Source of the DNA: Rhodanobacteraceae bacterium
GTDB lineage: Bacteria > Pseudomonadota > Gammaproteobacteria > Xanthomonadales > Rhodanobacteraceae
DNA length: 64,000 bases
Assembly (NCBI GenBank): GCA_004299555.1
Contig: SCQU01000004.1
Location: 1 to 64,000, forward strand
Direction of reading: 5' to 3'
The notes below the pieces were generated by a model that saw only the letters and a program-made list of their open reading frames with translations, did not search any database and was not told where the DNA came from. The position numbers and the translations under genes were made by a program. This document shows, piece after piece, positions 40,671-53,821 of this stretch. Each line of letters opens with the position of its first letter. Position 1 is the first letter of the stretch.

Positions 40671-41325
40671 TCGATCCCCCTTCCTGCGGAAGGGGGAAGA
40701 CAAGCCGAAACCGCCCGATTCCCTTCCTGCGGAAGGAGAAAGCGACCAGGTGGCGCACCGTTTCCCACCCCTTCGGTACGAAGGGGGTCGCGCCGAAGGC
40801 GCGGGGGATGCGCTACGCGCGACGCGGCAAGAGGGATTCCGCCACCCGCGAAAGCAGCACTCACCCCCTTCCAGGGGAAGGGGGTCGCGCCGAAGGCGCG
40901 GGGGATGCGCTACGCGCGACGCGGCAAGAGGGATACCGCCACCCGCGAAAGCAGCACTCACCCCCTTCCAGGGGAAGGGGGTCGCGCCGAAGGCGCGGGG
41001 GGATGCGCTACGCGCGACGCGGCAAGAGGGATGCCGCCACCCGCGAAAGCAGCACTCACCCCCTTCCAGGGGAAGGGGGTCGCGCCGAAGGCGCGGGGGA
41101 TGCGCTACGCGCGACGCGGCAAGAGGGATGCCGCCACCCGCGAGAGCAGCACGCACCCCCTTCCAGGGGAAGGGGGTCGCGCCGAAGGCGCGGGGGGGAT
41201 GCGCTACGCGCGACGCGGCGGGAGGGATACCGCCACCCGCGAAAGCAGCACTTACCCCCTTCCAGGGGAAGGGGGTCGCGCCGAAGGCGCGGGGGGATGC
41301 GCTACGCGCGACGCGGCGGGGGAGC
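40671..41325. repeat. Family-B tandem array, five-plus units of 97-99 bp
   Basis: The phrase ATGCGCTACGCGCGACGCGG recurs at 40808, 40905, 41003, 41100, 41199 and 41297, spaced 97, 98, 97, 99 and 98 bp. Each unit has a hairpin CCCCCTTCCAGGGGAAGGGGG, then TCGCGCCGAAGGCGCG and a G run of 4-7. Unit-length differences are in the G run, consistent with slippage. Units are otherwise nearly identical, so expansion is recent. The array ends 4 bp before the stop of pilE. Confidence 0.95.
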
Positions 41326-50005: not shown

Positions 50006-51364
50006 TCAATGCGCCAGATCGCCGATCACCTCATCGAGACACGTTTCCCAGGCGGGAAGCGCAACGCCGAACGTCGTGCGCAACTTGCCGGTATCGAGCA
50101 CCGACCACGCCGGGCGTGCGGCCCGGGTCGGATAGTCGGCGGTGCGGATGGCGACGATGCGTGGCGCGTGGGGTGGCATCCCCCCGCGCTGCGCGCGACC
50201 CCCTTCCTGCGGAAGGGGGTGACTGGCATTCCCTGTCGCTGGCGGATGGGAAACGGGGTGACCGGCATTCCCTGTCGTCGGCGGAAGGGAAACGGCGTGG
50301 CCGGCCTCCCCCTTCGCCGGCGAAGGGGGATCGAGGGGGATGTCGGCGCGGTCAAAAATCGCGCGCGCGAAGCCGCACCAGCTCGTCCGGCCACCGGCGA
50401 CGAGGTGGTAGACGCCATCGCGCGCCGGCCCGGCGTCGTCCAGCCACTGCCGCAGCACGGTCACCGTGGTTTTTGCAATCAGGCGCGCAGGCGTCGGCGC
50501 GCCGATCTGGTCATCGACCACCCGCAACTCGTCGCGTTCCGCACCAAGCCGCAGCATGGTACGCAGGAAATTCTTGCCGCGCGCGGCGTACACCCACGCG
50601 GTACGAAAAATCAGGTGGCGCGCACCGCTTTCCTGCAGCGTCACCTCGCCCGCGCGCTTGGAGCGGCCGTAGACGCTGACCGGGCACGGCGCATCGTCCT
50701 CGCGGTACGCGCGCGTCGCATGACCATCAAACACGTAGTCGGTCGAATAATGCACGACGCGCGCGCCATGCCGCGCGGCCCAGGCGCCAATCACACCAAG
50801 CGCATCACCGTTGACGCGCAGCGCGAGGTCAGGCTCGTCTTCGGCCCGATCGACCGCCGTGTAGGCGGCGGCGTTGACGATGACATCGGGCGTGATGCGA
50901 TCGAGCGCGGCGTTCAGCCCTGCAAGGTCGGCAAGGTCGATGCGTTCGCATTCAGCGCCGTTTTCGAGCCAGCCGTCGCGGGTGGCGGGGATGACTTTGC
51001 AGCGCGCCAGCGCATCCCCCCGCTGCTGCGCAGCGACCCCCTTCGTGCCGAAGGGGGTTTTGAATTCCTCTTCCTTCCTGCCGATGGGGGCATCAGATCC
51101 CTCCCCCTTCGCTTGCGAAGGGGGATTGAGGGGGATGGCTTCGTAGCGTTCACGCGCATCCCCCCGCTGCTGCGCAGCGACCCCCTTCGTGCCGAAGGGG
51201 GTTTTGAATTCCTCTTCCTTCCTGCCGATGGCGGCATCAGATCCCTCCCCCTTCGCTTGCGAAGGGGGATTGAGGGGGATGGCACTTCCCGCCAACGCGC
51301 GCAACAGCTCGTACCCCACCTGGCCATTGGCGCCGACGACGAGGATCTTGACTGGTTCGTGCAT
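50006..51364 (-). CDS. rmlD: dTDP-4-dehydrorhamnose reductase with three in-frame repeat insertions
   Basis: A 452-residue frame against ~300 for normal RmlD. Native parts: 'VKILVVGANGQVGYELLRALAG' (Rossmann, in part), 'TPDVIVNAAAYTAVDRAE', 'STDYVFDG', the Y-x-x-x-K 'VYGRSKRAGE', 'FRTAWVYAARGKNFL', 'VVDDQIGAPTPA', 'GVYHLVAGGRTSW', 'LDTGKLRTTFG'. Inserted: two tandem 48-residue copies ('AIPLNPPSQAKGEGSDA...GTKGVAAQQRGDA') after the first helix, and ~58 residues ('IPLDPPSPAKGEAGH...') before 'RIVAIRTADYPT'. No stop or frameshift. Makes dTDP-L-rhamnose with RmlA, B and C if still functional. Confidence 0.92.
   Translation of the reverse strand: MHEPVKILVVGANGQVGYELLRALAGSAIPLNPPSQAKGEGSDAAIGRKEEEFKTPFGTKGVAAQQRGDARERYEAIPLNPPSQAKGEGSDAPIGRKEEEFKTPFGTKGVAAQQRGDALARCKVIPATRDGWLENGAECERIDLADLAGLNAALDRITPDVIVNAAAYTAVDRAEDEPDLALRVNGDALGVIGAWAARHGARVVHYSTDYVFDGHATRAYREDDAPCPVSVYGRSKRAGEVTLQESGARHLIFRTAWVYAARGKNFLRTMLRLGAERDELRVVDDQIGAPTPARLIAKTTVTVLRQWLDDAGPARDGVYHLVAGGRTSWCGFARAIFDRADIPLDPPSPAKGEAGHAVSLPPTTGNAGHPVSHPPATGNASHPLPQEGGRAQRGGMPPHAPRIVAIRTADYPTRAARPAWSVLDTGKLRTTFGVALPAWETCLDEVIGDLAH
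50180..50345. repeat. Family-B repeat inside the rmlD C-terminal part
   Basis: GGCATCCCCCCGCGCTGCGC...CCCCCTTCCTGCGGAAGGGGG, two copies of a GACTGGCATTCCCTGTCG / GACCGGCATTCCCTGTCG phrase 37 bp apart, and CCCCCTTCGCCGGCGAAGGGGG, ending GATCGAGGGGGATG. In frame with rmlD. Confidence 0.88.
51011..51298. repeat. Two tandem 144-bp family-B units inside the rmlD N-terminal part
   Basis: Direct repeats starting at 51011 and 51155 (period 144 = 48 codons), differing at very few bases. Each has CGCATCCCCCCGCTGCTGCG, CCCCCTTCGTGCCGAAGGGGG, a ~50-bp unique core and CCCCCTTCGCTTGCGAAGGGGG ending GATTGAGGGGGATGGC. In frame with rmlD. Confidence 0.95.
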
Positions 51365-51399: not shown

Positions 51400-51832
51400 C
51401 CGGGGCGACCCGTAGGGTCGAACCCGGAATCGGTGGCGTCAAGTCCATCACGTCGCCGACTGGCACCGGCCCCACCCTGACGCCGGCTTTCTACGCAAAA
51501 GCCACTACGGCGGCATTCGACCGCGCCGCAAGGGTTGCAGGAAGACCGATTCCGGGTTCCGCGCTTCGCGCGGCCCCGGAATGACAACGCACGGCGCAGC
51601 CGCGGAATGACAACGCACGGTGCGGCCCCGGAATGACAACGCACGGCGCGGCCCGGGAATGACAACGCACGGCGCAGCCGCGGAATGACAACGCACGGTG
51701 CGGCCCCGGAATGACAACGCACGGTGCAGCCCCGGAATGACAACGCACGGCGCGGCCCTGGAATCACAAAGCAAGACGCAGCCCCGGAATGACAACGCAC
51801 GGCGCGGCCCCGGAATGACGAGTAGCAGCATA
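51400..51832. repeat. Family-C element plus 26-bp tandem array
   Basis: Starts with a full family-C element (CATTCCGGGGCGACCCG...GGGTCGAACCCGGAATCGG, 51394-51434). From ~51575 to 51825 GGAATGACAACGCACGG recurs every 26 bp, at 51581, 51607, 51633, 51659, 51685, 51711, 51737, 51763 (decayed), 51789 and 51815. The unit contains one arm of family C (CCCCGGAATGAC). Lies between rmlD and rmlC. Confidence 0.95.
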
Positions 51833-51851
51833 GCGACACACGTCAACGCTA

Positions 51852-52445
51852 CTAAAGCGCAGCCGATGCCGGCGCCCTGTACACCGGCAGCCGGTCCGCC
51901 GGCACCTCGGCAAGGTACGGCGCCGTTTCATCCTTCGCCGACAGCAGCGGCGCGGCGACCGGCCAGTCGATGCCGATCGCAGCGTCGTTCCAGCGTACGC
52001 CGGCGTCGGCCGCCGGGTCATACAACGCCGTGCACTGATACATGAACGTAGCCGCACCGCTGACCACGCAAAAGCCGTGCGCGAAACCTTCCGGGATCCA
52101 CAACTGGCGGTGGTTGTCGGCCGTCAGCATCGCCGCGGCCCAGCGGCCGAAGCTGGGCGAGCCGCGGCGGATGTCGACCGCAACGTCGTACACCTCGCCC
52201 TCCAGCACCGACACCAGCTTGCCCTGCGGATGCGGCCACTGGTAGTGCAACCCGCGCAACACGCCTTGCGCCGAACGCGAAACGTTGGATTGCACGAAGT
52301 GCGCGTCGATGCCGATCGACTGGTACTTGCCGGCGTGGAAGCTCTCGAAAAAATAGCCGCGCGCGTCACCATGCACCACGGGTTCAATGACGCACACGCC
52401 CGCAAGATCGGTATCGATGCGCTTGAGTTGGGGTTGTCCGGTCAT
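51852..52445 (-). CDS. rmlC: dTDP-4-dehydrorhamnose 3,5-epimerase
   Basis: A 197-residue cupin-fold epimerase acting on dTDP-4-keto-6-deoxyglucose. Motifs: 'GVCVIEPVVHGDARGYFFESFHAGKY' (in part), 'FVQSNVSRSAQGVLRGLHYQ' with the catalytic His, 'GKLVSVLEGEVYDVAVDIRRGSPSFG' (in part), 'WIPEGFAHGFCVVS'. Starts at 52445. Some ~15 residues at the C-terminus ('VYRAPASAAL') are unremarkable. Not disrupted by repeats, though flanked by them. Confidence 0.96.
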   Translation of the reverse strand: MTGQPQLKRIDTDLAGVCVIEPVVHGDARGYFFESFHAGKYQSIGIDAHFVQSNVSRSAQGVLRGLHYQWPHPQGKLVSVLEGEVYDVAVDIRRGSPSFGRWAAAMLTADNHRQLWIPEGFAHGFCVVSGAATFMYQCTALYDPAADAGVRWNDAAIGIDWPVAAPLLSAKDETAPYLAEVPADRLPVYRAPASAAL

Positions 52446-52942
52446 GCTGCGTATCCATGAATGGATGGCTTTCCATTCTTCCCGCGGAAGAAGGGCGCAT
52501 CGCGCTGCTCTTTCTTTTGCCCGCAGGGCCGGATGAGGGTACGCGCCTGCGTCACGCCGATGCCTCACGCGTAGACGCGTTTGAGTTGGGTTGGTGGGTC
52601 ATGCGATCCGCATCCTGTCAGCGACTGCATCGAGTCACGGTTTTGTTCGCCATTCCGGGGTGAAGCCAATCTCCTGGCTGGTCGCTCTGCGGCACCTGTT
52701 TTTCTCTTGTCATTGCGGGGCGCCGCGCAGCGGCGAACCCGGAATCGGTGCTCAAGCCGCCGCAAAACCGATTCCGGATTCCGGCCTGTGGCCGGTCCCG
52801 GAATGACCAGGAAAAAATGATGCGGCGGCCGGCGCCCCGGAATGACGACAAAGAGTGCCGCCATCGAACCCGGAATGACAACGACGGACTCACAAGCAGG
52901 CCACCGGCCAGCGCGCGAACAGTCCGTCACTGCACGCCACGA
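52446..52942. repeat. Repeat-filled gap between rmlA and rmlC
   Basis: Nearly 500 bp without a gene inside the rml operon. A decayed family-A piece (CCCGCAGGGCCGGATGAGGGT) at ~52519-52540, then family-C elements from 52655: CATTCCGGGG, CATTGCGGGGCGCCGCGCAGCGGCGAACCCGGAATCGG, GATTCCGGATTCCGGCC...GGTCCCGGAATGAC, and single arms CCCCGGAATGAC, GAACCCGGAATGAC. Confidence 0.85.
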
Positions 52943-53821
52943 TCATGCCCCGCCCACCAGCCGCAACAGGTACTGTCCATAGCCGGTCTTGGCCAGCGGA
53001 GCGGCCAGTTCGCGCACGCGCGCGGCGTCGATCCAGCCTTGCTGGAAGGCGATCTCTTCCGGGCAACATACCTGCAACCCTTGTCGATTCTCGACCGTGG
53101 CGATGTAGTTGGCTGCATCCATCATCGACTCGTGCGTCCCGGTGTCGAGCCACGCGTAGCCGCGGCCCAATTGTTCCAGCATCAATGAGCCGTCATCGAG
53201 ATAGCAGCGGTTGAGGTCGGTGATTTCCAGCTCGCCGCGCGCCGACGGCTTGAGGTGCGCGGCAAAATCGCACACGCGCGCATCGTAGAAATACAACCCC
53301 GTCACCGCGTAATTGGATTTCGGCGTGGTGGGCTTTTCTTCCAGCCCGACCACGCGCCCTGACGCATCAAACTCGGCGACGCCGTAGCGTTTGGGATCGC
53401 GCACCAGATAACCAAACACCGTCGCGCCCCGCGCGCGCGTCGAGGCACGCTGCAGGCGTTCGGTCAGGCCGTGGCCAAAGAAGATGTTGTCGCCCAGCAC
53501 CAGCGCGCACGGATCGCCGGAGATGAACTCGCGGCCGATCAGGAACGCCTGCGCCAGGCCATCCGGCGACGGCTGCACCGCGTAGTGGATGCGGATGCCC
53601 CACTGCGAGCCGTCACCCAGCAGGTGCTGGAACAACGCCTGCTCGTGCGGCGTGTTGATCACCAACACCTCGCGGATACCGGCCAGCATCAGGACGGCCA
53701 GCGGGTAGTAGATCATCGGCTTGTCGTACACCGGCAGCAGCTGCTTGCTGATGGCCTGGGTCACGGGGTACAGGCGCGTGCCCGAGCCGCCGGCGAGGAT
53801 GATGCCTTTGTTTGTTGTCAC
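52943..53821 (-). CDS. rmlA: Glucose-1-phosphate thymidylyltransferase
   Basis: A 292-residue nucleotidyltransferase making dTDP-glucose, the first rhamnose step. Motifs: '[36 protein letters not shown]' (in part; activator/nucleotide loop and the Lys that binds sugar phosphate), '[17 protein letters not shown]', '[10 protein letters not shown]', 'RYGVAEFD', '[20 protein letters not shown]', '[14 protein letters not shown]'. Full length and intact. Lies upstream of rmlC after a 497-bp repeat gap. Confidence 0.97.

Follow-up and report, generated by a model that had tools for sequence, protein, structure and literature searches.

In-frame palindromic repeats in the rmlD gene of a Rhodanobacteraceae bacterium and in the same loop of RmlD across its genus

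The rmlD gene and its repeat elements

The window analyzed here, a stretch of 64,000 nucleotides from contig SCQU01000004.1 of an uncultured Rhodanobacteraceae bacterium, carries on its reverse strand the genes rmlD (50006..51364), rmlC (51852..52568, an open frame as listed, with a provisional start) and rmlA (52943..53821). The coding sequence of rmlD, the gene of dTDP-4-dehydrorhamnose reductase, consists of 452 codons plus TGA and contains three repeat elements in frame. We read it from an ATG; a mechanical list of open reading frames places the start at a TTG six codons upstream. The frame is open throughout, from 51364 down to 50006, with no internal stop. This bears out the initial annotation, according to which the repeat units lie in frame without stop or shift, and RmlD is indeed enlarged by about half. 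The product matches TIGR01214 with 302.9 bits, above the curated cut-off of 224.05, the match being split into two stretches; the narrower RmlD model NF007440 (PRK09987) yields 259.4 bits, below its cut-off of 308. The signature residues GxxGQxG, STDYVF and YxxxK, which we take to be the catalytic motifs of RmlD, are present, as had been claimed, and they are invariant among the 11 sequences of the genus. The presence of another rmlD, raised as a possibility with the first description of the gene, was looked into as well: none was found in the 2.98-Mb genome, where the next PF04321 match scores 55 bits against 260 and TIGR01214 matches one place at the threshold used.

All three elements read CATCCCCC...GGGGGATG on the coding strand. 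Element 1, the first in coding order (125 bp, 51157..51281), is followed by a spacer of 19 bp (51138..51156) and by element 2 (125 bp, 51013..51137), which is one base off element 1. Element 3 (166 bp, 50177..50342) has the same ends and a different core – a tandem array of a 39-bp unit in 2.9 copies (50216..50327). A third unit near the C-terminus had been described initially; it exists there, its size being about 55 codons and not about 58. Together with the spacer, elements 1 and 2 form a tandem with a period of 144 bp, for which Tandem Repeats Finder reports 1.9 copies, 99% matches and a score of 541. The two 144-bp units (50987-51130 and 51131-51274) are 94% identical, with one difference in the 125-bp element and seven in the 19-bp spacer. 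Element 1 is open in four of the six frames, and its predicted RNA fold pairs the two ends (-73.6 kcal/mol, z -6.3 relative to shuffled sequences). Terminal inverted repeats, as in a MITE, and two inverted REPs as the dispersed unit, as in a REPIN, are both found in the element; its ends, CATCCCCC and GGGGGATG, bear neither a GTAG nor a CGTC tag. No clear target site duplication was seen in the element flanks read.

Fold and selection of the enlarged protein

In an AlphaFold2 model of the enlarged RmlD, based on 50 aligned sequences, 282 residues have a pLDDT of at least 90. The only segments with a pLDDT below 50 are residues 27-110 and 352-387, both within the inserts; hence structure prediction, proposed at the outset to see where the inserts lie, places them in loop segments of low confidence. 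The modeled core superimposes on the Klebsiella RmlD structure 8ctr with a TM score of 0.93 by target length, and the RmlD core is preserved in the prediction.

The dN/dS ratio of the core between the window's rmlD and its relatives is 0.20-0.31. For the one pair without the window's genome considered here, G005 and G013, both insert-bearing, it is 0.12 and thus below the values of the window's gene. Furthermore, no other rmlD branch within the genus is as long as that of this gene (0.30 versus 0.11-0.24), a feature not seen in rmlA and rmlC. By these comparisons, the rmlD core is under purifying selection, with a constraint that is perhaps relaxed in the window's genome.

The same loop across the genus

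The genus is represented by 16 genomes, the window's genome being G000, and rmlD was obtained from 11 of them. G001, G002, G003, G004 (a single contig) and G007 gave no rmlD at the thresholds used, the protein search returning weak or no matches. The rmlD DNA of G008 is the same as that of the public metagenome-assembled genome Rhodanobacteraceae bacterium FW021_bin.3 (SCQS01000002.1).

Eight of the 11 rmlD-bearing genomes possess a long insert in one and the same loop of RmlD, between the first helix (helix A) and the second strand. Measured from GxxGQ to HYSTDYVF, the segment that spans the loop has 194 residues in G000, 164 in G006, 161 in G011, 151 in G008, 143 in G014, 140 in G005, 134 in G013 and 133 in G012; it has 116 in G015, 115 in G010 and 104 in the insert-free G009. 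Outside the genus, this loop-spanning segment has 90-109 residues (100 measurable of 104 loci). The count of eight leaves out G010 and G015, whose loops of 22-23 residues are not established as repeats. All eight insert-bearing genes keep an open frame, the gene of G006 running off its contig. The neighboring genes are free of such inserts: over the aligned stretches, rmlA has no net insert in any of ten relatives, and rmlC none of more than one codon in ten of ten, with a single-codon difference in one of them. Elsewhere in RmlD, an extra stretch after 'QW' is a recognized repeat in G008; the one at this place in G014 was not recognized as a repeat.

The repeats that fill the loop differ between genomes. 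The inserts of G000, G006, G008 and G014 resemble the CATCCCCC family and match one another (E of 1e-11 or better in five of the six pairs; 8e-14 for G000 and G006), and each of these four genomes contains at least 40 matches to the family at E<=1e-6. At the same threshold, the family has four matches in G011, three in G003, one in G001 and none in the nine other genomes. The remaining loop inserts recur in their own genomes, with 53 matches in G005, 48 in G011, 42 in G013 and 22 in G012, counts that include the rmlD copy itself and self-matches of palindromes. The G005 insert has no above-chance match to the other loop inserts, and no match to it was found in G009, G011, G012 or G013. The inserts of G011, G012 and G013 have only short pieces in common, at best 26 bp at 88% identity (G011 and G012) and 17 bp between G011 and G013. 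A count of five unrelated families was dropped in view of these shared pieces; the comparison points to at least three unlike kinds of repeat, perhaps five. The element of G014 is read in a different frame from those of G000, G006 and G008, which speaks against selection for one particular peptide. In the core tree, the insert-bearing genomes mostly group together, and the insert-free G009 is placed beside the insert-bearing G006 with a support of 0.93.

A dispersed repeat family

Across the 2.98-Mb genome, 72 matches to the 144-bp unit reach E<=0.01, a count that takes in opposite-strand self-matches of palindromes, 40 of 89 candidates having been scored. Because of these matches, the repeats in rmlD are not a product of chance. 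Most matches correspond to the hairpin ends; outside rmlD, one place among the matches listed matches across the core (C28:139827, 77%). The pattern of both ends was found in 17 element-like sequences in the stretches from each of G000, G008 and G014, i.e. 51 in total, some of them just 37-38 bp long and the copies in rmlD counted in. The window's family thus behaves like a REP-type palindromic dimer whose ends lack the GTAG and CGTC tags.

Outside rmlD, the copies examined look mostly intergenic, a statement derived from a codon-composition test together with Pfam scans of the frames that cover repeats. Among 106 repeat clusters (48 from G000, 28 from G014 and 30 from G008), this test tagged four as in-frame intragenic; five further clusters were too close to an end for it. 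The test is insensitive, since it tagged one of five clusters whose place in rmlD is established. When 20 open frames covering copies of the repeat were scanned with Pfam, four showed a domain and 16 none, and in the four the repeat precedes the domain or sits at its end. Owing to these positions, repeats near MacB/FtsX, PilW, AdoHcyase and TGT genes were rejected as in-frame insertions.

A long in-frame repeat insert was found in a second enzyme, a DegT aminotransferase of G008 (C11:5500-8600, positions 1373-1616 of that stretch). Between GLPAP and TRHAYHLF it has 88 residues including a 36-bp array, versus four residues in G012, and the loop is short in G000, G010, G011, G013 and G014 too, so that six relatives are without the insert.

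Some further observations concern single loci. A molybdopterin/iron-sulphur protein of G014 (C1:1259200-1262200, positions 1514-1683) carries an in-frame palindromic repeat. On contig C17 of the window's genome (at about 93.7 kb, positions 1526-1873 of the stretch L066), a candidate frame contains, near its start, a 39-bp (13-codon) unit repeated 8.9 times and bounded by ends of the CATCCCCC family; the frame gave no family match in a Pfam scan, nor in an NCBIfam scan of part of it. The window itself includes a 26-bp tandem array between rmlD and rmlC (51518-51871, ten register positions listed) and a 97-bp array of 5.5 copies (40780-41317) with the same hairpin repeat as the rmlD elements and a period that is not divisible by 3.

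Target preference and mobilization

Immediately ahead of the CATCCCCC end, the motif AAAAGC is present in eight of 19 copies in G014, seven of 22 in G008, three of five in G006 and one of 25 in G000; the background of the shorter AAAGC is 0.0006-0.0008 per position. The insert-free rmlD of G009 reads GAGAAAAGC exactly at the place of the insert, and AAAAGC occurs there. Judging from these occurrences, AAAAGC at the loop site may explain why the loop is filled recurrently. We do not accept it as a proven target: in G011, AAGC also adjoins the end of a different kind of repeat, and the motif may be part of the elements themselves.

The search with a RAYT model revealed no parent insertion sequence for the window's family. 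It returned a single RAYT-like gene, which with 77.7 bits falls short of the cut-off of 80; no CATCCCCC sequence occurs closer to this gene than about 1.4 kb.

Origin of the 144-bp tandem

The initial annotation saw in the tandem pair a sign that units can amplify within a gene in codon multiples. In part, the details agree. The 144-bp period runs from the CATCCCC of the element to a CATCCCC in the host codons of strand 2, and this exact period between two copies of CATCCCC favors a local duplication; the 39-bp arrays within coding sequence agree with local duplication in codon multiples. In addition, 12 of the 19 spacer positions carry the base found in the host sequence that follows element 2, a level of agreement reached by 143 of the 127,964 19-mers of the window. 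The left end of the element would have slipped or recombined with the host CATCCCC just downstream, yielding an exact 144-bp duplication that keeps the frame, and we infer that such slippage or recombination is the most likely origin of the pair. What does not fit is the divergence: with seven of 19 positions different in the spacer and one of 125 in the elements, plain duplication followed by drift is not what one would predict, so two separate insertions are conceivable as well. Either these or gene conversion between the units could explain the greater divergence of the spacer.

Frame-keeping periods were considered as a proof of selection and rejected owing to the small numbers. The periods in rmlD (144 and 39), in L066 (39) and in the DegT gene (36) are divisible by 3 in four of four cases, the one in L066 being a candidate only; among the other arrays listed, this applies to nine of 24.

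Interpretation

Taken together, we consider it probable that dispersed REP-like palindromes landed in a single-copy rmlD and were tolerated in frame in its loops, and that one of these loops has received repeats recurrently within the genus. According to this model, an element with a variable core framed by inverted hairpins at its two ends, CATCCCCC...GGGGGATG, would insert into rmlD. Its copies would persist where the net insertion amounts to whole codons, introduces no stop and lies in a loop that spares the Rossmann core; the enlarged protein would then be translated and presumably keep its activity. The first loop, from helix A to strand 2, would be hit repeatedly, each sister species supplying palindromic repeats from its own genome, in part of unlike kinds. 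Several observations count against this model, namely the long branch of the window's rmlD with a dN/dS above that of the G005-G013 pair, the uneven divergence of spacer and elements, the RAYT-like match below its cut-off without a CATCCCCC sequence nearby, the absence of a clear target duplication in the flanks read, and the 26 bp at 88% shared by the inserts of G011 and G012. Given this last similarity, the sequences suggest rather than prove that the loop inserts are independent of one another.

The same shared piece would be expected if rmlD had received one ancestral insertion in the genus and the repeat had later been replaced, lengthened or converted by others. The CATCCCCC family common to the loops of G000, G006, G008 and G014 and the grouping of most insert-bearing genomes in the core tree point the same way. 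We regard such a single event as rather unlikely, however, since the insert of G005 has no above-chance match to the others and none in G009, G011, G012 and G013, and the G014 element is read in a frame of its own. Moreover, the insert-free G009 stands beside the insert-bearing G006, and therefore at least one loss or a separate gain would be needed.

The long branch and the raised dN/dS are also what a decaying gene would exhibit. An rmlD that is losing its function might still be open by chance, as element 1 is open in four of six frames, and five of the 16 genomes of the genus give no rmlD at all. Yet dN/dS is well under 1, the signature residues are kept, the other rml genes beside rmlD are intact, and the frame remains open in all eight insert-bearing genomes (as far as the contig reaches in G006); decay is therefore improbable in our view. 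Even further from what we would expect is a removal or skipping of the inserts at the level of RNA or translation, leaving a protein of normal size. The very stable fold of element 1 with its paired ends would suit it, but a strong fold is expected of palindromic elements anyway, and such a process needs no open frames, yet the frames seen are open.

Beyond the model of tolerated landing in a loop, one may speculate that the helix A-strand 2 loop is a true landing pad into which unlike palindromes insert time after time, perhaps because rmlD has a favored target next to a loop that tolerates them, and that the disordered segments may have gained a role, e.g. in the regulation or assembly of RmlD. 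We put this forward as a doubtful idea at present.

So far, what bears on mobile palindromes as a source of new protein segments has come from Rickettsia and from scattered cases of intragenic REPs. RmlD, for which no second copy was found, offers eight natural alleles of a single loop with at least three unlike kinds of repeat, and the insert-free sister G009 and the insert-free neighbor genes are built-in controls. Tolerance, frame selection and gain of function can thereby be tested by assaying homologous enzymes in a standard way, and the recurrent, repeat-filled loop of RmlD provides a natural test of selfish DNA turning into protein.

Comparison with known systems

Intragenic REPs are short palindromic repeats inside open reading frames, occurring singly, as dimers or in clusters; some frames are hit twice, clusters encode 43-82 residues, and a roughly shared site of recB is occupied by one REP in X. 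campestris and by a different one in X. oryzae (Di Nocera et al. 2013, PMC3733652). The units in rmlD resemble them as palindromic repeats inside reading frames, including the case of different REPs in one gene. They differ in that neither a GTAG nor a CGTC tag is found at the ends of the window's element, and in that the RmlD loop is filled in eight of 11 genomes by at least three unlike kinds of repeat, with a 144-bp tandem in frame. The Rickettsia palindromic elements (RPE), of about 150 bp, are found in frame inside unrelated genes (PMC10969869). The likeness to the rmlD elements, palindromic and in frame as well, is one of description; the lineage is another one, and the recurrence here concerns one loop of one gene. 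REPINs (see PMC3116915, PMC8266576) are pairs of inverted REPs that a RAYT mobilizes. The window's unit likewise has two inverted hairpins, and the insert of G005 holds GTAGGAGCGGC... and ...CTCCTAC; in contrast to REPINs, no RAYT could be assigned to the family of the window, whose ends are without GTAG. QMITE of Coxiella are short inverted-repeat elements found overlapping reading frames or inserted in them (PMC5896051), comparable to the present element as an inverted repeat in frame, but neither a cognate insertion sequence nor a target duplication was found here.

Among the best-ranked matches listed from the open-licence literature, there is no paper on rmlD with REPs or on intragenic REPs of this case in Rhodanobacteraceae or other Xanthomonads. 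As far as searches of this literature reach, what is new is the recurrent filling of a single enzyme loop with unlike repeats, together with the probable amplification of a unit in frame. In-frame palindromes in genes are a kind already known, and eight occupied loops in one enzyme are a stronger case of it.
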